Source: Methylomarinovum caldicuralii (GTDB taxonomy: Bacteria > Pseudomonadota > Gammaproteobacteria > Methylococcales > Methylothermaceae). Taken from it: a stretch of DNA of 64,000 nt. Below, piece by piece: positions 4,339 through 40,140 of the stretch. The DNA is taken from NCBI RefSeq assembly GCF_033126985.1, contig NZ_AP024714.1, positions 806,001 through 870,000 on the forward strand, read 5' to 3'. The notes beneath the pieces were generated by a model, which worked only from the letters and a program-made list of their open reading frames with translations, was not told where the DNA came from and did not search any database. The translations under genes and the position numbers were made by a program. Each line of letters opens with the position of its first letter. Within the stretch, counting starts at the first letter, position 1.

Positions 4339-4994
4339 TTCGGCCACACCCGCCACAGCAGCAGCAAAATGGCGCCGAACTGGGAGATCCAGAACAGGAA
4401 GCTCCATTTGAGCCAGGTGAGCTGGGCCCGGGAGATATCGGAATTCAAATCCACCCGCAGCCGGGCGATTTCCACCTTGAGTTCGGATCTCACCTTTTCG
4501 GTTTCCAGCCGGAGGTTTTCGATTTCCTTGGTGAGATCGGTGCGAACCTGCTCAATCTCCACTTTGAGATCGGCCCGCACTTGTTCGATCTCTTTGGTGA
4601 GATCGGCGCGAACCTGTTCGATTTCCTTGGTGAGATCGGCGCGGACTTTCTCGATCTCTTTGGTAAGGTCGGTACGGACTTGTTCGATTTCCACCTTGAG
4701 ACCGGCGCGGACCTGCCCGATTTCCTTAGTGAGATCGGCCCGGACCTGCTCGATTTCCACCCGGAGTTCCGCCCTGATCTGCTCGATTTCCTTGCGAACC
4801 TGCTCGATCTCCCTGAGCAGCTTCAATTCGGTTTCCCGCAGATCCCGGCGGGTGGCCATGTCCCCCAGGTTGGGATAGCGTTCCTCCAGCGCCTCGAACG
4901 CCTCGGCGATGATCTTGGCGCGGGTTTTGTCGTCCGGCGCGGTGGCAAGGCGCTCGTAAAGATCGATGACGGAAGGCATGACGGTCGCTGCCAT
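4335..4994 (-). CDS. Coiled-coil protein with 11-residue repeats and C-terminal membrane anchor (DUF1640-like)
   Basis: About 219 residues. After a short helical N-terminal part (LYERLATAP, AFEALEERY) come about ten copies of an 11-residue unit close to KEIEQVRADLT (residues about 60-170), i.e. a hendecad coiled coil, then a hydrophobic C-terminal segment (LKWSFLFWISQFGAILLLLW, about 195-214) that should anchor it in the inner membrane. The layout resembles DUF1640/CCDC90-like bacterial proteins, which are uncharacterised. Start could be the ATG at 4994 or at 4979. First gene of the operon with the ACT and UPF0210 genes; divergent from the Wadjet operon across about 100 bp. Function unknown. 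Confidence 0.8.
   Translation of the reverse strand: MAATVMPSVIDLYERLATAPDDKTRAKIIAEAFEALEERYPNLGDMATRRDLRETELKLLREIEQVRKEIEQIRAELRVEIEQVRADLTKEIGQVRAGLKVEIEQVRTDLTKEIEKVRADLTKEIEQVRADLTKEIEQVRADLKVEIEQVRTDLTKEIENLRLETEKVRSELKVEIARLRVDLNSDISRAQLTWLKWSFLFWISQFGAILLLLWRVWPK
4555..4800 (-). repeat. 33-bp tandem repeats encoding hendecad coiled coil
   Basis: Imperfect tandem 33-bp units inside the coiled-coil gene, each encoding one KEIEQVRADLT-like hendecad. Several units are nearly identical at DNA level (e.g. around 4590-4690), so copy number could vary by slippage or recombination while keeping frame. Confidence 0.8.
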
Positions 4995-5093
4995 TCTTTG
5001 GGATTTGACTCCGTATGGTAGCACAAGGGCGAGCTGTCGCCCGGCAGGGGATTCGGGTAGAATGCCGATTTCATCCGTTTCAGCGCTCCGTCT

Positions 5094-6554
5094 TTGGCAT
5101 CCGATTCCAGCCGTTTTCCCGATTACCATGACCTGGTCTTGCTGCGCCAGCAGCATCCGGCCTGGCGCCTGTTGGCCGCCGCCCATGCGCCTTTGGTGCT
5201 CACCTTGCTGCATACTGCCTTCATCGCTCCCAACCGCCGTGCTCTGCCCCGCCAGCAGTTGATCGCCCTCCTCGACGACCTGCTTTTCGACCTGCGCCAG
5301 CAGGTGGGCGGGGACGCCTTTCCCAAAGCGGCGGCCGCCTATCTGGACGACTGGGCCGGGGACGACAAGGGCTGGCTGCGTAAGTACTATCCCGAGGACA
5401 GCGACGAGCCCCACTACGATCTGACCCCGGCGGCGGTGCAGGCGTTGGAGTGGGTGGCCGGGTTGCAGCGGCGCGAGTTCGTCGGCACCGAATCGCGTCT
5501 GCTGCTGGTCTTCGAGCTGCTGCGGCAGATGGCCGAGGGCAGCGAGACCGACCCCGAAGCCCGCATCGCCGAGCTGGAACGCCGCCGGGGCGAGATCGAC
5601 GCCGAGATCGAACGCATCCGCAGCGGCCAGCTGGAACTGATGGACCCAACCCGCCTGCGCGACCGTTTCCTGCAGATGCAGGACACCGCCCGTCGCCTGC
5701 TGGCCGATTTCCGCGCCGTGGAACAGAACTTCCGCGAACTCGACCGCCGCGTGCGCGAGCGCATCGCCACCTGGGAGGGCGGCAAGGGGGAGTTGCTGGC
5801 GGAAGTGTTCGGCCATACCGACGCCATCGCCGATTCCGACGAAGGCCGCAGCTTCCGCGCCTTCTGGGATTTCCTCATGGACCCGCGGCGCCAGGAGACG
5901 CTGACCGGCTTGCTGGAAAAGATCCTGGCGCTGGAACCGATCCGCCAGCTCCGCCCCGACCCGCGCCTGCGCCGTATCCACTACGACTGGCTCGAGGCCG
6001 GCGAGGCCACCCAGCGCACCGTCGCCCGGCTGTCCCAGCAGCTGCGGCGCTGGCTCGACGACCAGACCTGGCTGGAGAACCGCCGCATCATGGCCCTGCT
6101 GCGCGACATCGAGCAGCACGCCATCGCCGTCCGCGAGTGCCCGCCGCCGGGGGATTTCATGACCGTGGACGCCGCCGCCCCGGCCATCGAACTGGTGATG
6201 GAGCGCCCCCTGTTCCAGCCTTCCGCCCGCATCCGCATCGAGGACCGGGTGGTGGTGGAAGGGGAGGCGGGGACGCTTGACGAGGCCCTGTTCAAGCAGC
6301 GCTTCGTCGACCGCGAGGCGCTGGCGGACCACATCCGCCGCCTGCTGCGCTCCCAGTCCCGGGTGTCCCTGGCCCAGGTGGTGGCGGCCCGCCCCCTGGC
6401 GGAAGGGTTGGCGGAACTGCTGACCTATCTGGAGCTGGCCGAGGCCGACCCCAGGGCGGTGGTGGACGACGGCCGCAGCGAAACCATCGACTGGACCGGC
6501 GGCGACGGCGTCGTCCGCCGCGCCCGTGTGCCCCTGATTCTGTACTGCCGCTGA
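5094..6554 (+). CDS. jetA: Wadjet component JetA (DUF3375)
   Basis: 486-residue DUF3375 protein, the kleisin-like subunit of type I Wadjet, an SMC-type complex that recognises and cuts closed circular plasmids. The N-terminal LLRQQHPAWRLL followed by long helical segments (residues about 150-260, RIAELERRRGEIDAEIERI) fits the family. The reading frame begins at TTG 5094; no in-frame ATG lies close upstream, and the ATG at 5062 is out of frame, so a TTG start is likely. First of four tightly spaced genes: jetB starts 8 bp downstream. Confidence 0.93.
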   Translation: MASDSSRFPDYHDLVLLRQQHPAWRLLAAAHAPLVLTLLHTAFIAPNRRALPRQQLIALLDDLLFDLRQQVGGDAFPKAAAAYLDDWAGDDKGWLRKYYPEDSDEPHYDLTPAAVQALEWVAGLQRREFVGTESRLLLVFELLRQMAEGSETDPEARIAELERRRGEIDAEIERIRSGQLELMDPTRLRDRFLQMQDTARRLLADFRAVEQNFRELDRRVRERIATWEGGKGELLAEVFGHTDAIADSDEGRSFRAFWDFLMDPRRQETLTGLLEKILALEPIRQLRPDPRLRRIHYDWLEAGEATQRTVARLSQQLRRWLDDQTWLENRRIMALLRDIEQHAIAVRECPPPGDFMTVDAAAPAIELVMERPLFQPSARIRIEDRVVVEGEAGTLDEALFKQRFVDREALADHIRRLLRSQSRVSLAQVVAARPLAEGLAELLTYLELAEADPRAVVDDGRSETIDWTGGDGVVRRARVPLILYCR

Positions 6555-6562
6555 GGAACCGA

Positions 6563-7135
6563 ATGGAAGACCCGTTGCCCCAGGTGCTGATTCCGCTGCT
6601 CAAAGGGGTGGTTTATGCCGAGGCCGACCCGCCCCGCTGGCAGAAGCTTTTGGACCTGCAGGCGAGGATCCGCGAGGTGACGGGCCTCATGGGCCTGGAG
6701 CTGATCATCGACGAGGCCGAAGGCCACGCTTTCCTGCGCCAGCGGGAATTCGTCGCGGAGGAAACGCCGTTGCCGCGGCTGGTGCCGCGCCGCCCCCTGA
6801 GCTTTCCGGTGAGCCTGCTGCTGGCGCTGCTGCGCCGCCGCCTGCTGGAATTCGACCAGAGCGGCGCAGACACCCGCCTGGTGCTGCACCGCGACGACAT
6901 CGCCGAAATGGTGCGGGTGTTCCTGCCCGAATCCAGCAACGAGGCCAAATTGCTCGACCGCCTCGACCGCGACCTCAAGCGCATCGAGGAATTGGGCTTC
7001 CTGCGCCGCCTCAAGGGGCAGGAACACCTGTTCGAGGTGCAGCGGATTCTCAAGAGCTTCGTCGACGCCCAGTGGCTGGGGGAATTCAACGAACGGCTGG
7101 CGGCGTATCGCAAGCATTTGGAAGAGGAAGACTGA
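6563..7135 (+). CDS. jetB: Wadjet component JetB (DUF4194)
   Basis: 190-residue DUF4194 protein, the MukE/KITE-like winged-helix subunit of type I Wadjet that pairs with JetA on the JetC motor. Recognisable pieces are the LIPLLKGVVY-like N terminus, the PRRPLSFPVSLLLALLRRRL segment at about 75-95, and the C-terminal LDRDLKRIEELGFLRRL winged-helix region. It sits between jetA and jetC with one base before the jetC start, so coupled translation is expected. Assignment rests on family features plus the four-gene order. Confidence 0.92.
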   Translation: MEDPLPQVLIPLLKGVVYAEADPPRWQKLLDLQARIREVTGLMGLELIIDEAEGHAFLRQREFVAEETPLPRLVPRRPLSFPVSLLLALLRRRLLEFDQSGADTRLVLHRDDIAEMVRVFLPESSNEAKLLDRLDRDLKRIEELGFLRRLKGQEHLFEVQRILKSFVDAQWLGEFNERLAAYRKHLEEED

Positions 7136-35133: not shown

Positions 35134-35199
35134 GGCGCGGATTCCCCCGGTTGAAGTTCCGCTAACGTTTTACTCCCCCGCTTGAGAGGCGTCAACACG

Positions 35200-35862
35200 A
35201 TGCAGGATTCCTCCCTGGAAGCGGTCGTGGTGGAAACCGGTCCCGATCCCGACGCCTGCATCGTCTGGCTGCACGGGCTGGGGGCCGACGGCCACGACTT
35301 CGAGCCCATCGCCGCGGAGCTGAACTTGCCCGGGGCGGTCCGTTTTATCTTTCCCCATGCGCCGGTGCGGCCGGTGACCATCAACGGCGGCATGGCGATG
35401 CGGGCCTGGTACGACATCGCCAGCCCCGACCTGCGTCTCCGGGTGGACGCGGCGGGCATCCGCCGGTCCCAGGCGTCGATCGACCGTCTGCTCGACACCC
35501 AGATCGCCGCCGGCATCCCGCCGGGGCGGATCGTCCTCGGCGGTTTCTCCCAGGGCGGGGTGATCGCCCTGGAAACCGGGGTGCGCCGCCGCCCGCCCCT
35601 GGCCGGGATCGTCGCCCTGTCAACCTACGTCGCCCTGGCGGACGAATTCCCCCCGGCGCCGCCGGATGCGGCCCCCATCCTGATGATGCACGGCAGCCTC
35701 GATCCCATCGTGCCGCCGGCCTTGGCAGAGGACAGCCGCCGCCTGCTGGAGGCGCTGGGTTATCCCGTGGAATGGCACGTCTTCCCCATGGCCCATTCGG
35801 TATGCGCCGAGGAGCTCGCCATCCTGCGCCGCTGGCTGCTGGCGCGCTTCGGTTGGAATTAG
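35200..35862 (+). CDS. Carboxylesterase/acyl-protein thioesterase (alpha/beta hydrolase)
   Basis: 220 residues of the phospholipase/carboxylesterase family (Pfam Abhydrolase_2). Oxyanion HGLGADGHDF, nucleophile serine in GGFSQGG (about residue 114), catalytic Asp in HGSLDPIVP and His in FPMAHSV. Hydrolyses short-chain esters or acyl-thioesters; the natural substrate is not deducible. ATG 35200 gives the family start; six upstream codons from 35182 have no ribosome site. It ends within 4 bp of the convergent adenylate cyclase end. Confidence 0.9.
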   Translation: MQDSSLEAVVVETGPDPDACIVWLHGLGADGHDFEPIAAELNLPGAVRFIFPHAPVRPVTINGGMAMRAWYDIASPDLRLRVDAAGIRRSQASIDRLLDTQIAAGIPPGRIVLGGFSQGGVIALETGVRRRPPLAGIVALSTYVALADEFPPAPPDAAPILMMHGSLDPIVPPALAEDSRRLLEALGYPVEWHVFPMAHSVCAEELAILRRWLLARFGWN

Positions 35863-37877
35863 TCCGCCGGGTACCAGACCAGACGTCCCTGCCGCTGCTG
35901 AAAGCGGTAAAGCCGGCCGGCGGCGGTGAGCTCGGCAGGATGCCCGGCCGGCAGATCTTCCTTCAGCTGCTGGTAGCAGGCCGTTATCCGCCGGGCCAGC
36001 GTCGGGGCGGAAAAGCAGAAGGATTGCAACGTCAGCGCCTCCCCGCCCTGTTGATACAGGCGGCAGAGGGCGTCGAGCCAGCCTTCCAGTTCCTGATAGC
36101 GGTGGCTTTCCCATTCCCCCCAGGTGTTGAGGGTGAGGATTTCCAGGGTCTGGAGCAGGCATTGGCGTTCGGCGCCGTAGTCGAGCGGATCGAAGCGGGC
36201 GCTGGCGATCTCGAAATCCCCGCGCCGGGGGCGGGTGGGACGGCCCAGATTGGCGGCCAGCAAGGCCCGCTGCAGTCTTGCCGGCCGTGCGAAGGCGTCC
36301 AGTTCCGGTTCCCCGGCGGCCTCGAGAAAACACCGGAGTTCGCGGTTGAGGGCGGCCAGTTCCGCCGCCGTCACCGGGGTCTCGGGCGGCAGTTGCCAGC
36401 GGGTGGCGGGGACGGCGAGCCGGTTGACCCAGCTCCAGGCCAGGGCGCCGAGAAGGGTGTCGGCCTGATGCAACGGCGTCGGTGATTCGCCGGGAAGGGC
36501 GATCTGCCACCGTTCGGTTTCCGGATCCCGGGACAGCTGCAGCCACGGTTCCGGATCGGCGCGCAGGCGCAGGACCGGAACCTTGCCCGGGCGACTGCCG
36601 AGCACCGCCTGCAGGCGCCGGGTCAGCAGCTGCATGTCCGCCGTGGGAGTCTCCGGTTCTCCGGCGAGGCGGCGGATCGTGGCGTAGGCGTTCTCCAGGG
36701 CGTCGGTCAGCGCCTGCCATTCCTCCAGCGCCTGGGTGATCGTCAGCGTGCCGCGACGGCGGGGTGGCGGCAGTTCGCCGCGTTGTACCAGGGTCGCCGC
36801 CAGGCGGCGGTAGTCCGGATGCCGCTCGGTGTCGCCGATCTTGAGGGCGAAGCAGTGGCGGGTGAGCTGCACCAGTGCTGGCGCTCCCGTCCGCTGGGCG
36901 GCCTCGGTGGCGCGGCGGTACAGCAGCAGATACGGATCGAGGGCGAAGGGATCGGGGGTGCCTGCGTGCACCGCGGCCTTGATGGTGGTGGCGAGCCAGC
37001 GCGGCCGCGGGTGGTCGGCGGCGTAGTCGAGCAGCAGCAGCAGCTTGAGCAGGGCCTTGTGGGGGGCGTCGAGGGCCTTGTGCAGATGCCACAGGCCGGC
37101 GCTGACCAGTTCCTGCGTCGGCAGCCGTTCCAGGCCGCCGAGGTCGATGAGGCCGCCGGGATCGATGAAACGCTTGCCGAGGAGAAAATCGGCGTATTCA
37201 CGGTAACGCCCTTCCCATTCCGGCGGCACCAGCCACCACAACGGCCGCTGCCCGGCCAGATGGATGGCGGTGCGGTAGAACTCCTCCAGCAGCAGGATGT
37301 GCAGGGTACTGCCGGCGCTTTCCTTGGACAGCGCGGGCGGGATCCCCCGGCGCAATGCCTCCGGCGACACCAGGAAGCAGTGCAGCTCCAGCCCGAAACC
37401 GGCCATCCAGTCCTCGATGGCGCGGCATTTGGCCTGCAGGGCCGCCAGATCGCCGACCTCCAGATCGCTGCGGTGGCAGATCCACAGATCCAGGTCGCTG
37501 CCGCGGGAAAACGCGATGCTGCCGACGCTGCCCATCAGAAACAGCGCCAGCAGCGGGGCTTCGGAATGGCCGCGGAGGCGGTGGTCGAGGCCGGGAAAGT
37601 GGCGTCTGGCCGCCCGGCGCATGAAGGGATCGGGACGATAGTCGCGGATGCCGGCGGGAGCCGGGCCGAGATCGTAGCCGGGCAGGGCGGGATGGTGCTG
37701 GTGCAGCAGCAGCGGCAGCAGTGCCAGGGCGTCGCGCTGGCGGGGGCTGAAGGTGTTCGCCAGCAGCTGCAGCCGCTGGCGGTGGAAATGGAGGAAGCGC
37801 CGGATCAGGTGGTTGAGATCGCGGCGGCTGATTTCTCCGCCCGGCGCCGCCAGACGGATGGCGCGTGCCCGGTTCAA
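35859..37877 (-). CDS. cyaA: Class I adenylate cyclase, short form
   Basis: About 672 residues from a probable TTG start at 37877 (no ATG near the family N terminus). It follows E. coli CyaA throughout: MGSVGSIAFSRGSDLDLW (residues 115-132, nucleotidyltransferase GS..SDLD), LLLEEFYRTAIHLAGQR, WLDLGGL-type IDLGGLERL, LDPYLLLYRR, and the C-terminal QSFCFSAPTLARRI. E. coli CyaA has 848 residues; the glucose-responsive C-terminal part is shortened here. It begins 8 bp after the GGDEF gene's stop, so the two are one transcript. Makes cAMP. Confidence 0.88.
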   Translation of the reverse strand: MNRARAIRLAAPGGEISRRDLNHLIRRFLHFHRQRLQLLANTFSPRQRDALALLPLLLHQHHPALPGYDLGPAPAGIRDYRPDPFMRRAARRHFPGLDHRLRGHSEAPLLALFLMGSVGSIAFSRGSDLDLWICHRSDLEVGDLAALQAKCRAIEDWMAGFGLELHCFLVSPEALRRGIPPALSKESAGSTLHILLLEEFYRTAIHLAGQRPLWWLVPPEWEGRYREYADFLLGKRFIDPGGLIDLGGLERLPTQELVSAGLWHLHKALDAPHKALLKLLLLLDYAADHPRPRWLATTIKAAVHAGTPDPFALDPYLLLYRRATEAAQRTGAPALVQLTRHCFALKIGDTERHPDYRRLAATLVQRGELPPPRRRGTLTITQALEEWQALTDALENAYATIRRLAGEPETPTADMQLLTRRLQAVLGSRPGKVPVLRLRADPEPWLQLSRDPETERWQIALPGESPTPLHQADTLLGALAWSWVNRLAVPATRWQLPPETPVTAAELAALNRELRCFLEAAGEPELDAFARPARLQRALLAANLGRPTRPRRGDFEIASARFDPLDYGAERQCLLQTLEILTLNTWGEWESHRYQELEGWLDALCRLYQQGGEALTLQSFCFSAPTLARRITACYQQLKEDLPAGHPAELTAAGRLYRFQQRQGRLVWYPAD

Positions 37878-37884
37878 GTTGCGC

Positions 37885-38664
37885 TCAGGACAGCAAGGCG
37901 CTGAGGTCGATTTCCTGATCCTGGGACACCCGCTTGAGCAGCTTGCCCAGATCGTCTCCCTTGTTCCAGGCGGCGACGCCGTAGCGGATCTTGCCTTCGC
38001 CGTCCTGGAGCTGGACGGCGGCGCGGTCGCTGAGGAGCTTGACCGCCAGCTCGCGGGCATCCTCCAGGCCGGTTTCCGGCAGCACCAGCAGGAAGGTGTT
38101 GTCGTCCAGGAGGCCGATTTCGTCGGCCCAGCGGAGTTTGTCCTTGAGCGCCTGGCTCAGCGTCCGCATCAGCTCCCGGCGCCGGGCCTCGTCGCTGTCG
38201 ATCTCGAGACTGAGGCGGATGACCGCCAGCGGGTTCTCGTAACGGCGGCTGCGGCTGATCTGACGGTCCAGCTCCCGCAGGATGGCGCGGCGGTTCTGCA
38301 GCCCGGTGACCGGATCGCGGGTTTCCAGGGTTTCGAGGCGTTGCCGCAGCGCTTCAAGCTCGTCGATCATGCGCCGCTGCTCGGTGACGTCGGCGAAATA
38401 ATGCGCTTCCCCTTCGGGAAGCGCATGGACGGAGTGGCGCTGGAACCAGCGGATCCCGTCGGGCGTGGCGACCTCCACCAGATCCTCCCGCCACAGACTC
38501 AGCGGCGTGTCCGCCAAGGGGCGGCCGATGAATTCCCCTTTGGGGCGGCCGGCCAGATCGGCCAGGGTCTGATTGAGCCAGGCGATCCGGTTCTGGCGGA
38601 CGATGAGGACAGCCAAGGGGGCCTTGTCGAGCGCGACGCTCAGGTCATCTTGGGTGACGATCAT
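37885..38664 (-). CDS. PAS plus degenerate GGDEF domain protein
   Basis: 259 residues. PAS domain about 10-95 (PLAVLIVRQNRIAWLNQTLADLAG; DVTEQRRMIDELEALRQ linker), then a GGDEF domain about 110-250 beginning RDPVTGLQNRRAILREL. The catalytic loop that should read GG(D/E)EF is LLDDNTF (185-191), so diguanylate cyclase activity is very unlikely. It probably senses a cofactor or GTP/c-di-GMP and passes the signal to its partner. Start at ATG 38664; cotranscribed with the adenylate cyclase downstream. Confidence 0.85.
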   Translation of the reverse strand: MIVTQDDLSVALDKAPLAVLIVRQNRIAWLNQTLADLAGRPKGEFIGRPLADTPLSLWREDLVEVATPDGIRWFQRHSVHALPEGEAHYFADVTEQRRMIDELEALRQRLETLETRDPVTGLQNRRAILRELDRQISRSRRYENPLAVIRLSLEIDSDEARRRELMRTLSQALKDKLRWADEIGLLDDNTFLLVLPETGLEDARELAVKLLSDRAAVQLQDGEGKIRYGVAAWNKGDDLGKLLKRVSQDQEIDLSALLS

Positions 38665-38724: not shown

Positions 38725-40140
38725 TCAAGTCCCGTGCGGGGGCTTGCCGCCCGGCAGCTGTGCCAACCGCGCCCGTGCTTCCTCGACCGCCTGCCGCACC
38801 CGCTCCGGGGCGGTGCCGCCGTAATGACGGCGGGCGGCGACCGAGCCTTCCAGGGTCAGCACTTCATAAACGTCCTCCCCGATGGCCGGACACAGCGCCT
38901 GCAGCGCCGCCAGCGGCAGCTCGGCCAGATCGCAGCCTGCTTCCATCGCCTGCCGTACCGCCTTGCCGACGATTTCGTGGGCGTCGCGGAAGGGCACGCC
39001 CTTGCGCACCAGGTAATCGGCCAGATCGGTGGCGGTGGCGAACCCCTGGCGGGCGGCGGCCTTCATCCGCTCGCGCTTGGGGCGGACGTGGGGCATCATG
39101 TCGGCGAAGGCGCGCAGGCAGGCACGCACCGTGTCGACGGCGTCGAACAGCGGTTCCTTGTCCTCCTGGTTGTCCTTGTTGTAGGCCAGCGGCTGGGCCT
39201 TCATCAGCGTCAAAAGTCCCATCAGGTGACCGAACACCCGCCCGCTCTTGCCGCGCACCAGTTCCGGCACGTCTGGGTTCTTCTTCTGCGGCATGATCGA
39301 GGAGCCGGTGCAGAAGGCGTCGGGCAGCTCGACGAAATCGAACTGGGCCGAGGTCCACAGCACCAGTTCCTCGGAGAAGCGCGACAGGTGCATGAGGATC
39401 AGGGAGGCGCAGGCTGCAAATTCGATGGCGAAGTCGCGGTCGGAGACGGCATCAAGGGAGTTGGCCGCCGGCCGCTCGAAGCCCAGCAGCCCGGCGGTGT
39501 AGAAACGGTCGATGGGGTAGGGGGTGCCGGCCAGGGCGGCGGCGCCCAGGGGCATGACGTTGACCCGGCGGCGGCAGTCGAGAAGGCGCTCGCGGTCGCG
39601 CTGGAGCATCTCGAACCAGGCCAGGAGGTGATGGCCGAAGGTGACCGGCTGGGCCACCTGCAGATGGGTAAAGCCGGGCATGATGGTGTCGGCCTCGCGT
39701 TCGGCCAGGTCCAGCAGGGCGGTCTGCAGCCGCGTCAACTCGGCCAGGATCCGGTCGATCTCGTCGCGCAGCCACAGGCGGATGTCGGTGGCCACCTGGT
39801 CGTTGCGGGAACGGGCGGTGTGGAGCTTCTTGCCGGCATCGCCGATCAGCTCGGTCAGGCGCGCCTCGATGTTCATGTGGACGTCCTCCAAGGCCACCGA
39901 CCACTGGAATTCCCCCCCCTCGATCTCGTCCAATATCCGCTGCAGCCCGGAAACGATGGCCCGGCATTCCGCCTCCGTGAGCACGCCGATCTTGTGCAGC
40001 ATCCGGGCGTGGGCGATGGAGCCCTGAATGTCGTAGGGGGCCAGGCGCTGGTCGAAAGAGACCGAGGCGGTGAATTCCTCGACGAATTTGTCGGTGGGCT
40101 GGCTGAAACGGCCGCCCCAGGGTTTGTCCTGCGTGGTCAT
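38725..40140 (-). CDS. argH: Argininosuccinate lyase
   Basis: 471 residues; last step of arginine synthesis (argininosuccinate to arginine and fumarate). [19 protein letters not shown] start, [18 protein letters not shown]-equivalent [16 protein letters not shown], and the fumarase/lyase signature [12 protein letters not shown] with the catalytic serine are all present. Intact. Divergent from the HAD phosphatase gene (about 40 bp plus leader); upstream of the GGDEF/cyclase pair but separated by 60 bp. Confidence 0.97.

Follow-up and report, generated by a model that had tools for sequence, protein, structure and literature searches.

The 64,000-nucleotide stretch analysed here (the window) covers positions 806001-870000 of the 2,694,844-base chromosome of Methylomarinovum caldicuralii (genome G000, contig C1). 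On its minus strand, a gene for a protein with a PAS-like and a degenerate GGDEF domain (P0001) immediately precedes cyaA, the gene for a class I adenylyl cyclase. We propose that this protein represents a gammaproteobacterial family of candidate cyclic di-GMP (c-di-GMP) receptors linked to cyclic AMP (cAMP) signalling. The features of the locus are listed below.

37885..38664, minus: PAS plus degenerate GGDEF protein P0001, 259 amino acids (open reading frame, Pfam, alignment, AlphaFold model); putative receptor for c-di-GMP with a link to cAMP signalling
38386..38652, minus: N-terminal PAS-like domain, residues 5-93, boundaries approximate (weak Pfam PAS matches below cut-off, AlphaFold secondary structure)
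37921..38319, minus: GGDEF-fold domain, about residues 116-248 (Pfam, alignment to solved cyclases, AlphaFold)
38239..38250, minus: SRRY, residues 139-142; R141 and Y142 invariant in 128/128 rows of the family alignment
38122..38133, minus: RWAD, residues 178-181, the primary inhibitory site (RxxD); its R, W and D do not vary in any of the 128 rows
38092..38106, minus: DDNTF, residues 187-191, at the GG[DE]EF position (alignment to other GGDEF domains)
38038..38040, minus: K209, third inhibitory-site position; Lys or Arg in 123/128 rows
35859..37877, minus: class I adenylyl cyclase CyaA, 672 amino acids, TTG start, short C terminus (Pfam, alignment to Escherichia coli CyaA)
37482..37532, minus: intact catalytic nucleotidyltransferase-type motif of CyaA, GSVGSIAFSRGSDLDLW (alignment with E. 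coli CyaA)
35859..35862, no strand: end of cyaA overlapping the end of a convergent carboxylesterase-like gene (35182-35862, plus), the tail being missing up to that neighbour
38725..40140, minus: argH, argininosuccinate lyase, upstream of the PAS-GGDEF gene and a common neighbour in relatives; named from similarity by eye, with no family search

A first-pass annotation of the window had placed the PAS-GGDEF gene 7 bp ahead of a TTG-initiated cyaA within 35859-38664, and the sequence bears this out: the TGA stop codon of the former is followed by 7 bases and then by the TTG start of the latter. The GGDEF domain of P0001 matches its Pfam model at 46.6 bits (cut-off 23.8), while the PAS_4 match, at 22.9 bits, lies slightly under the cut-off of 23.1. 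An AlphaFold model of the protein (26 sequences; predicted local distance difference test, pLDDT, 85.6; predicted template modelling score, pTM, 0.58) has two domains, and the structures it matches best are of PAS-GGDEF or GGDEF type, several of them with c-di-GMP; such a likeness of predicted fold is by itself no proof of binding. The gene is under strong constraint, with a ratio of non-synonymous to synonymous substitution rates (dN/dS) of 0.12 against the sister species (argH 0.11, cyaA 0.25). Furthermore, the presence of 22 other GGDEF domains in the M. caldicuralii genome suggests that c-di-GMP signalling exists there.

The window cyclase matches the Pfam families Adenyl_cycl_N and Adenylate_cycl at 207.7 and 177.1 bits (cut-off 27 each), and its GSxGS...SDLDLW residues fit the class I pattern GSxxS...SD[LIM]D, a motif taken from the E. 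coli alignment that we take to be catalytic. As the first-pass annotation had noticed, the long tail of E. coli CyaA is missing: the window protein can be aligned only as far as residue 701 of 848, with about 150 tail residues absent, and Pfam model coverage stops at position 429 of 601. The truncated C terminus is compatible with class I membership, as shorter forms occur in the family. The TTG start is unremarkable because E. coli K-12 cyaA also begins with TTG; it is likewise found, by nearest start codon, in 8/9 genus relatives (in G009 the start as scripted is a far upstream ATG). With the window cyclase as query, phmmer found nothing in PDB at E values up to 1. The stop codons of cyaA and the convergent carboxylesterase-like gene overlap (35859-35862) at the place of the lost tail.

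Active-site and inhibitory-site residues of the family

The family alignment comprises 128 rows, namely P0001 and 127 loci; one locus with in-frame stops (L203, G465) gave no family match and was excluded. Judged by this alignment, the catalytic residues have been lost from the GGDEF protein family. The first-pass annotation rightly reported the GGDEF motif as missing, although its string LLDDNTF includes two residues preceding the aligned motif DDNTF. Motif columns 187-190 are variable in the family, with entropies of 2.4-3.4 bits, and a GGEF-like string occurs in five rows. The metal-binding Asp and the guanine-binding Asn/Asp pattern (D.D.FK..ND) are missing from the family as well: Asp is not among the eight commonest residues in the first metal Asp column of the 128 rows, and the K, N and D of the pattern fall in gaps in 95, 83 and 69 of the 128 rows, as compared with their retention in 15-16 of 16 control domains from the same genome, which were chosen for a GG[DE]EF-like string and whose motif conservation thus holds by construction. 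Six of the 22 other GGDEF domains were left out of the controls and may be degenerate. An active diguanylate cyclase with an odd motif is ruled out, the metal and GTP ligands being gone besides the GGDEF letters themselves.

Seven columns are invariant in all 128 rows (R141, Y142, R178, W179, D181, E197 and T198), and two of them, R178 and D181, fall on the RxxD c-di-GMP inhibitory site when aligned with cyclases of solved structure. R141 presumably sits at the position of the secondary inhibitory-site Arg (WspR R198 / PleD R313), and K209, whose column holds Lys or Arg in 123/128 rows, is taken by count to match PleD R390. The first-pass description of the domain as dead therefore holds for the catalytic residues and misses the inhibitory-site residues among the invariant columns. 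What sets the family apart, as far as aligned sequences can tell, is the survival of inhibitory residues through the decay of the active site, and not those residues alone.

Linkage to cAMP genes in the genus, the order and the class

The order sample consisted of 151 genomes searched with each protein, from which 60 stretches were fetched. In 10/10 genus genomes the GGDEF gene directly precedes a co-oriented cyaA, and the pairing is old. Further upstream, argH is found in 9/10 of these genomes, adjoining in seven and separated by a gap of 2.2 kilobases (kb) in G009 and 0.9 kb in G002; the contig of G006 ends before any argH position. Short cyclases (669-672 amino acids) occur in 4/10 genus genomes (G000, G009, G007 and G003), and the other six encode tailed cyclases of 867-933 amino acids, each with the GGDEF gene upstream too. 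Since the GGDEF gene accompanies tailed cyclases as well, the pairing predates tail loss, which would most simply have taken place in one subgroup already holding the GGDEF-cyaA pair. Families f4 and f6 also have the pair in many of their genomes, and f7 has it in one.

Several loci show arrangements of their own. In L052 (G001), the cyclase at 4844-6766 has lost catalytic residues (SELQVW for SDLDLW, GTAAG for GSVGS) and an internal stretch, and its GGDEF neighbour still has SRRY and RWAD. In the methanotroph-order genome G011, GGDEF gene and cyaA form a divergent pair of the kind seen across the class (L058), and the argH-linked gene is present in addition (L057); this pair may reflect transfer or contamination (estimated at 5%). 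Of 12 argH-cyaA gaps looked at in genomes that have no GGDEF neighbour, eight (L083, L090, L091, L092, L094, L097, L099 and L100) are filled by a histidine-phosphatase-like gene, named by eye; a gene so named also precedes cyaA in L086 and separates argH from the GGDEF gene in L054.

Across the class, 369 gammaproteobacterial genomes were searched for the GGDEF family with a profile built from 28 sequences at a cut-off of E <= 1e-34, and class I and class III cyclases were scored by PF12633 and PF00211, respectively. Matches at E 1e-34 to 1e-20 mostly went uncounted; six of them were fetched, and all keep RWxD. The family occurs in 83 of the 369 genomes, and a restriction to methanotrophs is ruled out by this search. 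A class I cyclase is encoded by 71/83 carriers and by 36/286 other genomes (Fisher odds ratio 41, p 5e-36), or by 77/89 and 30/280 when the six checked weaker members are counted, a pairing far above chance by statistics that ignore phylogeny. In 53 of the 71 carriers, drawn from 28 families, the gene and the class I cyclase lie within 3 kb of each other, 34 divergently and 19 in tandem, and 51 of these 53 adjoining cyclases have an open frame of at least 913 codons. The conserved pairing that the first-pass annotation had proposed to look for in relatives is thus found in 10/10 genus genomes and 53/83 class-sample carriers, and its suggested tie between a degenerate GGDEF gene and cAMP genes extends across the class. 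Some adenylyl cyclase, of class I or III, is present in 83/83 carriers versus 168/286 others; the 12 carriers without a class I cyclase all encode one of class III, as compared with 132/250 genomes lacking both the class I cyclase and the gene. Three family members, L203 (G465), L175 (G248) and L170 (G171), contain in-frame stops that may mark copies in decay or be errors in the sequence; of their genomes, G171 has a class I cyclase and the other two have none.

The gene also occurs in a second context. Among the 18 class I carriers in which it lies away from cyaA, 12 have an osmC-like gene and crp alongside; the other six are not beside crp (G444 and G418, with argH alongside; G225; G352; G183, at a contig end; and G308, in which a second copy adjoins cyaA). 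With lower-scoring members and L209 and L210 included, a crp-type gene adjoins 16 of the 128 loci examined. Fourteen of these 16 sequences form one osmC-crp group among cyaA-linked ones (Shimodaira-Hasegawa-like approximate likelihood ratio test, SH-aLRT, 94, not starred) in a quick tree whose long-branch warnings make clade counts rough. The closest PDB relatives of the crp product of L182 are Vfr and E. coli CRP. In L209 and L210, which lie outside the osmC-crp group, a different kind of CRP-family gene follows the GGDEF gene. Association with two different neighbours from one pathway, cyaA and crp, argues against pure inheritance of gene order.

A candidate c-di-GMP receptor and its alternatives

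We propose, with a probability of roughly 0.5, that the GGDEF-like protein is a non-synthesizing c-di-GMP receptor that feeds the cAMP-CRP pathway, most likely via CyaA. The receptor role is suggested by analogy with PelD, in which a dead GGDEF domain binds c-di-GMP. In P0001, the conserved inhibitory site (R178-x-x-D181, along with R141 and K209) would take up c-di-GMP, a second input may come from the PAS domain, and the signal would be handed to the cAMP-CRP pathway, most likely through a predicted contact with the adjacent adenylyl cyclase that alters its output, with contact and sign both putative. A more tentative extension, in which we place distinctly less confidence, is that a family of such receptors, spread across the class and sensing c-di-GMP through the inhibitory site, gates class I adenylyl cyclase directly, and CRP in one group; it would thereby connect the two principal second messengers of bacteria at the post-translational level.

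A number of observations weigh against the proposed receptor. The gene is kept without a class I cyclase in 19 genomes, 12 in the class sample and seven in the order sample (G010, G017, G013, G018, G072, G110 and G069), which implies that CyaA is not its only target; a strict CyaA partnership was given up on the 12/83 class-sample carriers. Six of the seven order-sample genomes have a class III cyclase, and the seventh, G017 (92% complete), gave no match to a class I or III cyclase or to the Crp family. Conversely, at the cut-off applied, the gene is missing from 36/107 genomes with a class I cyclase (30 counting the six weaker members), and family f106 holds both situations, G248 and G465 having the gene without the cyclase and G367 the reverse. 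The coupling of gene and class I cyclase is not strict. The f8 methanotrophs belong to the genomes with a class I cyclase and no such gene; their GGDEF matches are weak at best, and none adjoins cyaA in the fetched loci. The GGDEF-cyaA neighbourhood could be inherited gene order. At the residue level, the controls keep R178, D181 and R141 in 15, 15 and 14 of 16, and the inhibitory-site residues may partly serve the fold. The invariance is also somewhat favoured by the gathering of members with a profile that already held these columns and by the entry of L124 via an LRWAD pattern.

CRP is the chief rival target to CyaA. The protein would then act directly on CRP or on CRP-dependent promoters, its adjacency to cyaA reflecting membership of the same pathway, and this would account for carriers without cyaA. 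The crp-type neighbours at 16/128 loci, 14 of them in the osmC-crp group, speak for such a target, as does the presence of a close CRP in 80/83 carriers (109/286 others), a fraction above that of the class I cyclase (71/83). However, cyaA is the neighbour in 53/83 class-sample genomes, and within CRP-positive genomes the gene still tracks the class I cyclase (69/80 carriers versus 29/109 non-carriers). We consider CRP unlikely as the direct target.

We also consider it improbable that the gene is a positional passenger, an old resident of the argH-cyaA neighbourhood with a function of its own, for example a c-di-GMP output unrelated to cAMP. Adjacency to argH is retained in several genomes without cyaA, and further neighbours are shared with the E. 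coli cyaA region (hemCD-like in L054, lysA-dapF-DUF484-like in L201, named by eye), but the linkage persists where the genes are differently oriented and where, as in one group and an additional pair, the gene has moved to crp, and an adenylyl cyclase is present in 83/83 class-sample carriers.

Equally doubtful is a pseudo-enzyme scaffold that binds no c-di-GMP, in which sensing would fall to the PAS domain and RWxD and SRRY would maintain the fold or an interface with another protein. In favour of a scaffold, R178 and D181 are also common among the genome's domains with GG[DE]EF, and we know of no c-di-GMP contact made by the invariant W179, Y142, E197 or T198. RxxD is conserved in 128/128 rows here, as against 44-57% of GGDEF domains at large in the portion of one report available to us (PMC3974145); since only that share has it, the fold appears not to need RxxD. 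Finally, the first-pass idea that the dead GGDEF protein takes over from the regulatory tail that CyaA lacks, prompted by its position 7 bp upstream of a short cyclase, is highly improbable and was rejected, as long cyclases carry the same GGDEF gene in 6/10 genus members and in 51/53 class-sample neighbours.

Comparison with known systems

To our knowledge, few regulators of class I adenylyl cyclases are known outside enteric bacteria. A conserved protein with an intact predicted c-di-GMP site beside cyaA or crp in many gammaproteobacterial families is a concrete candidate for a direct messenger link, one that carries testable single-residue predictions (R178, D181, R141 and K209) and, if true, would assign a function to a family labelled merely GGDEF by plain domain search.

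The window cyclase shares with E. coli CyaA both Pfam domains, the catalytic motif and the TTG start, albeit with 30% identity over aligned columns and an end at E. coli residue 701 of 848; unlike the window gene, E. coli K-12 cyaA has no adjoining GGDEF gene. The GGDEF-like protein in turn shares its fold and inhibitory-site residues with the active diguanylate cyclases PleD, WspR, SiaD and DgcR, but is without their conserved metal-binding Asp, GTP-binding Asn/Asp and GG[DE]EF.

An action of c-di-GMP on cAMP synthesis has a precedent in Pseudomonas putida, where FleQ controls cyaA transcription according to the accessible text of a 2024 review (PMC11139211); the FleQ route is transcriptional and uses a different protein. 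The same text calls cAMP/c-di-GMP cross-regulation 'extremely limited', with examples that are transcriptional.

The accessible parts of two papers describe degenerate GGDEF domains as c-di-GMP receptors: in Bacillus cereus PelD, RxxD and one Arg of a dead GGDEF domain bind c-di-GMP (PMC7112168), and PelD, PopA, CdgA of Bdellovibrio and SgmT are named as such receptors (PMC3974145). No description of a dead-GGDEF family linked to cyaA or crp was found in literature titles and abstract openings, among the matches listed, which covered few subscription papers or preprints. Dead-GGDEF receptors are already known as a kind, and these comparisons suggest that a cyaA/crp-linked family of them is new. 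The window family resembles PelD-type receptors in having lost GG[DE]EF while keeping RxxD intact (R178 and D181, 128/128), presumably together with a further basic residue, and it differs from them in its PAS-GGDEF architecture, its linkage to cyaA or crp, the invariant W of its R-W-x-D and a c-di-GMP binding that is predicted.

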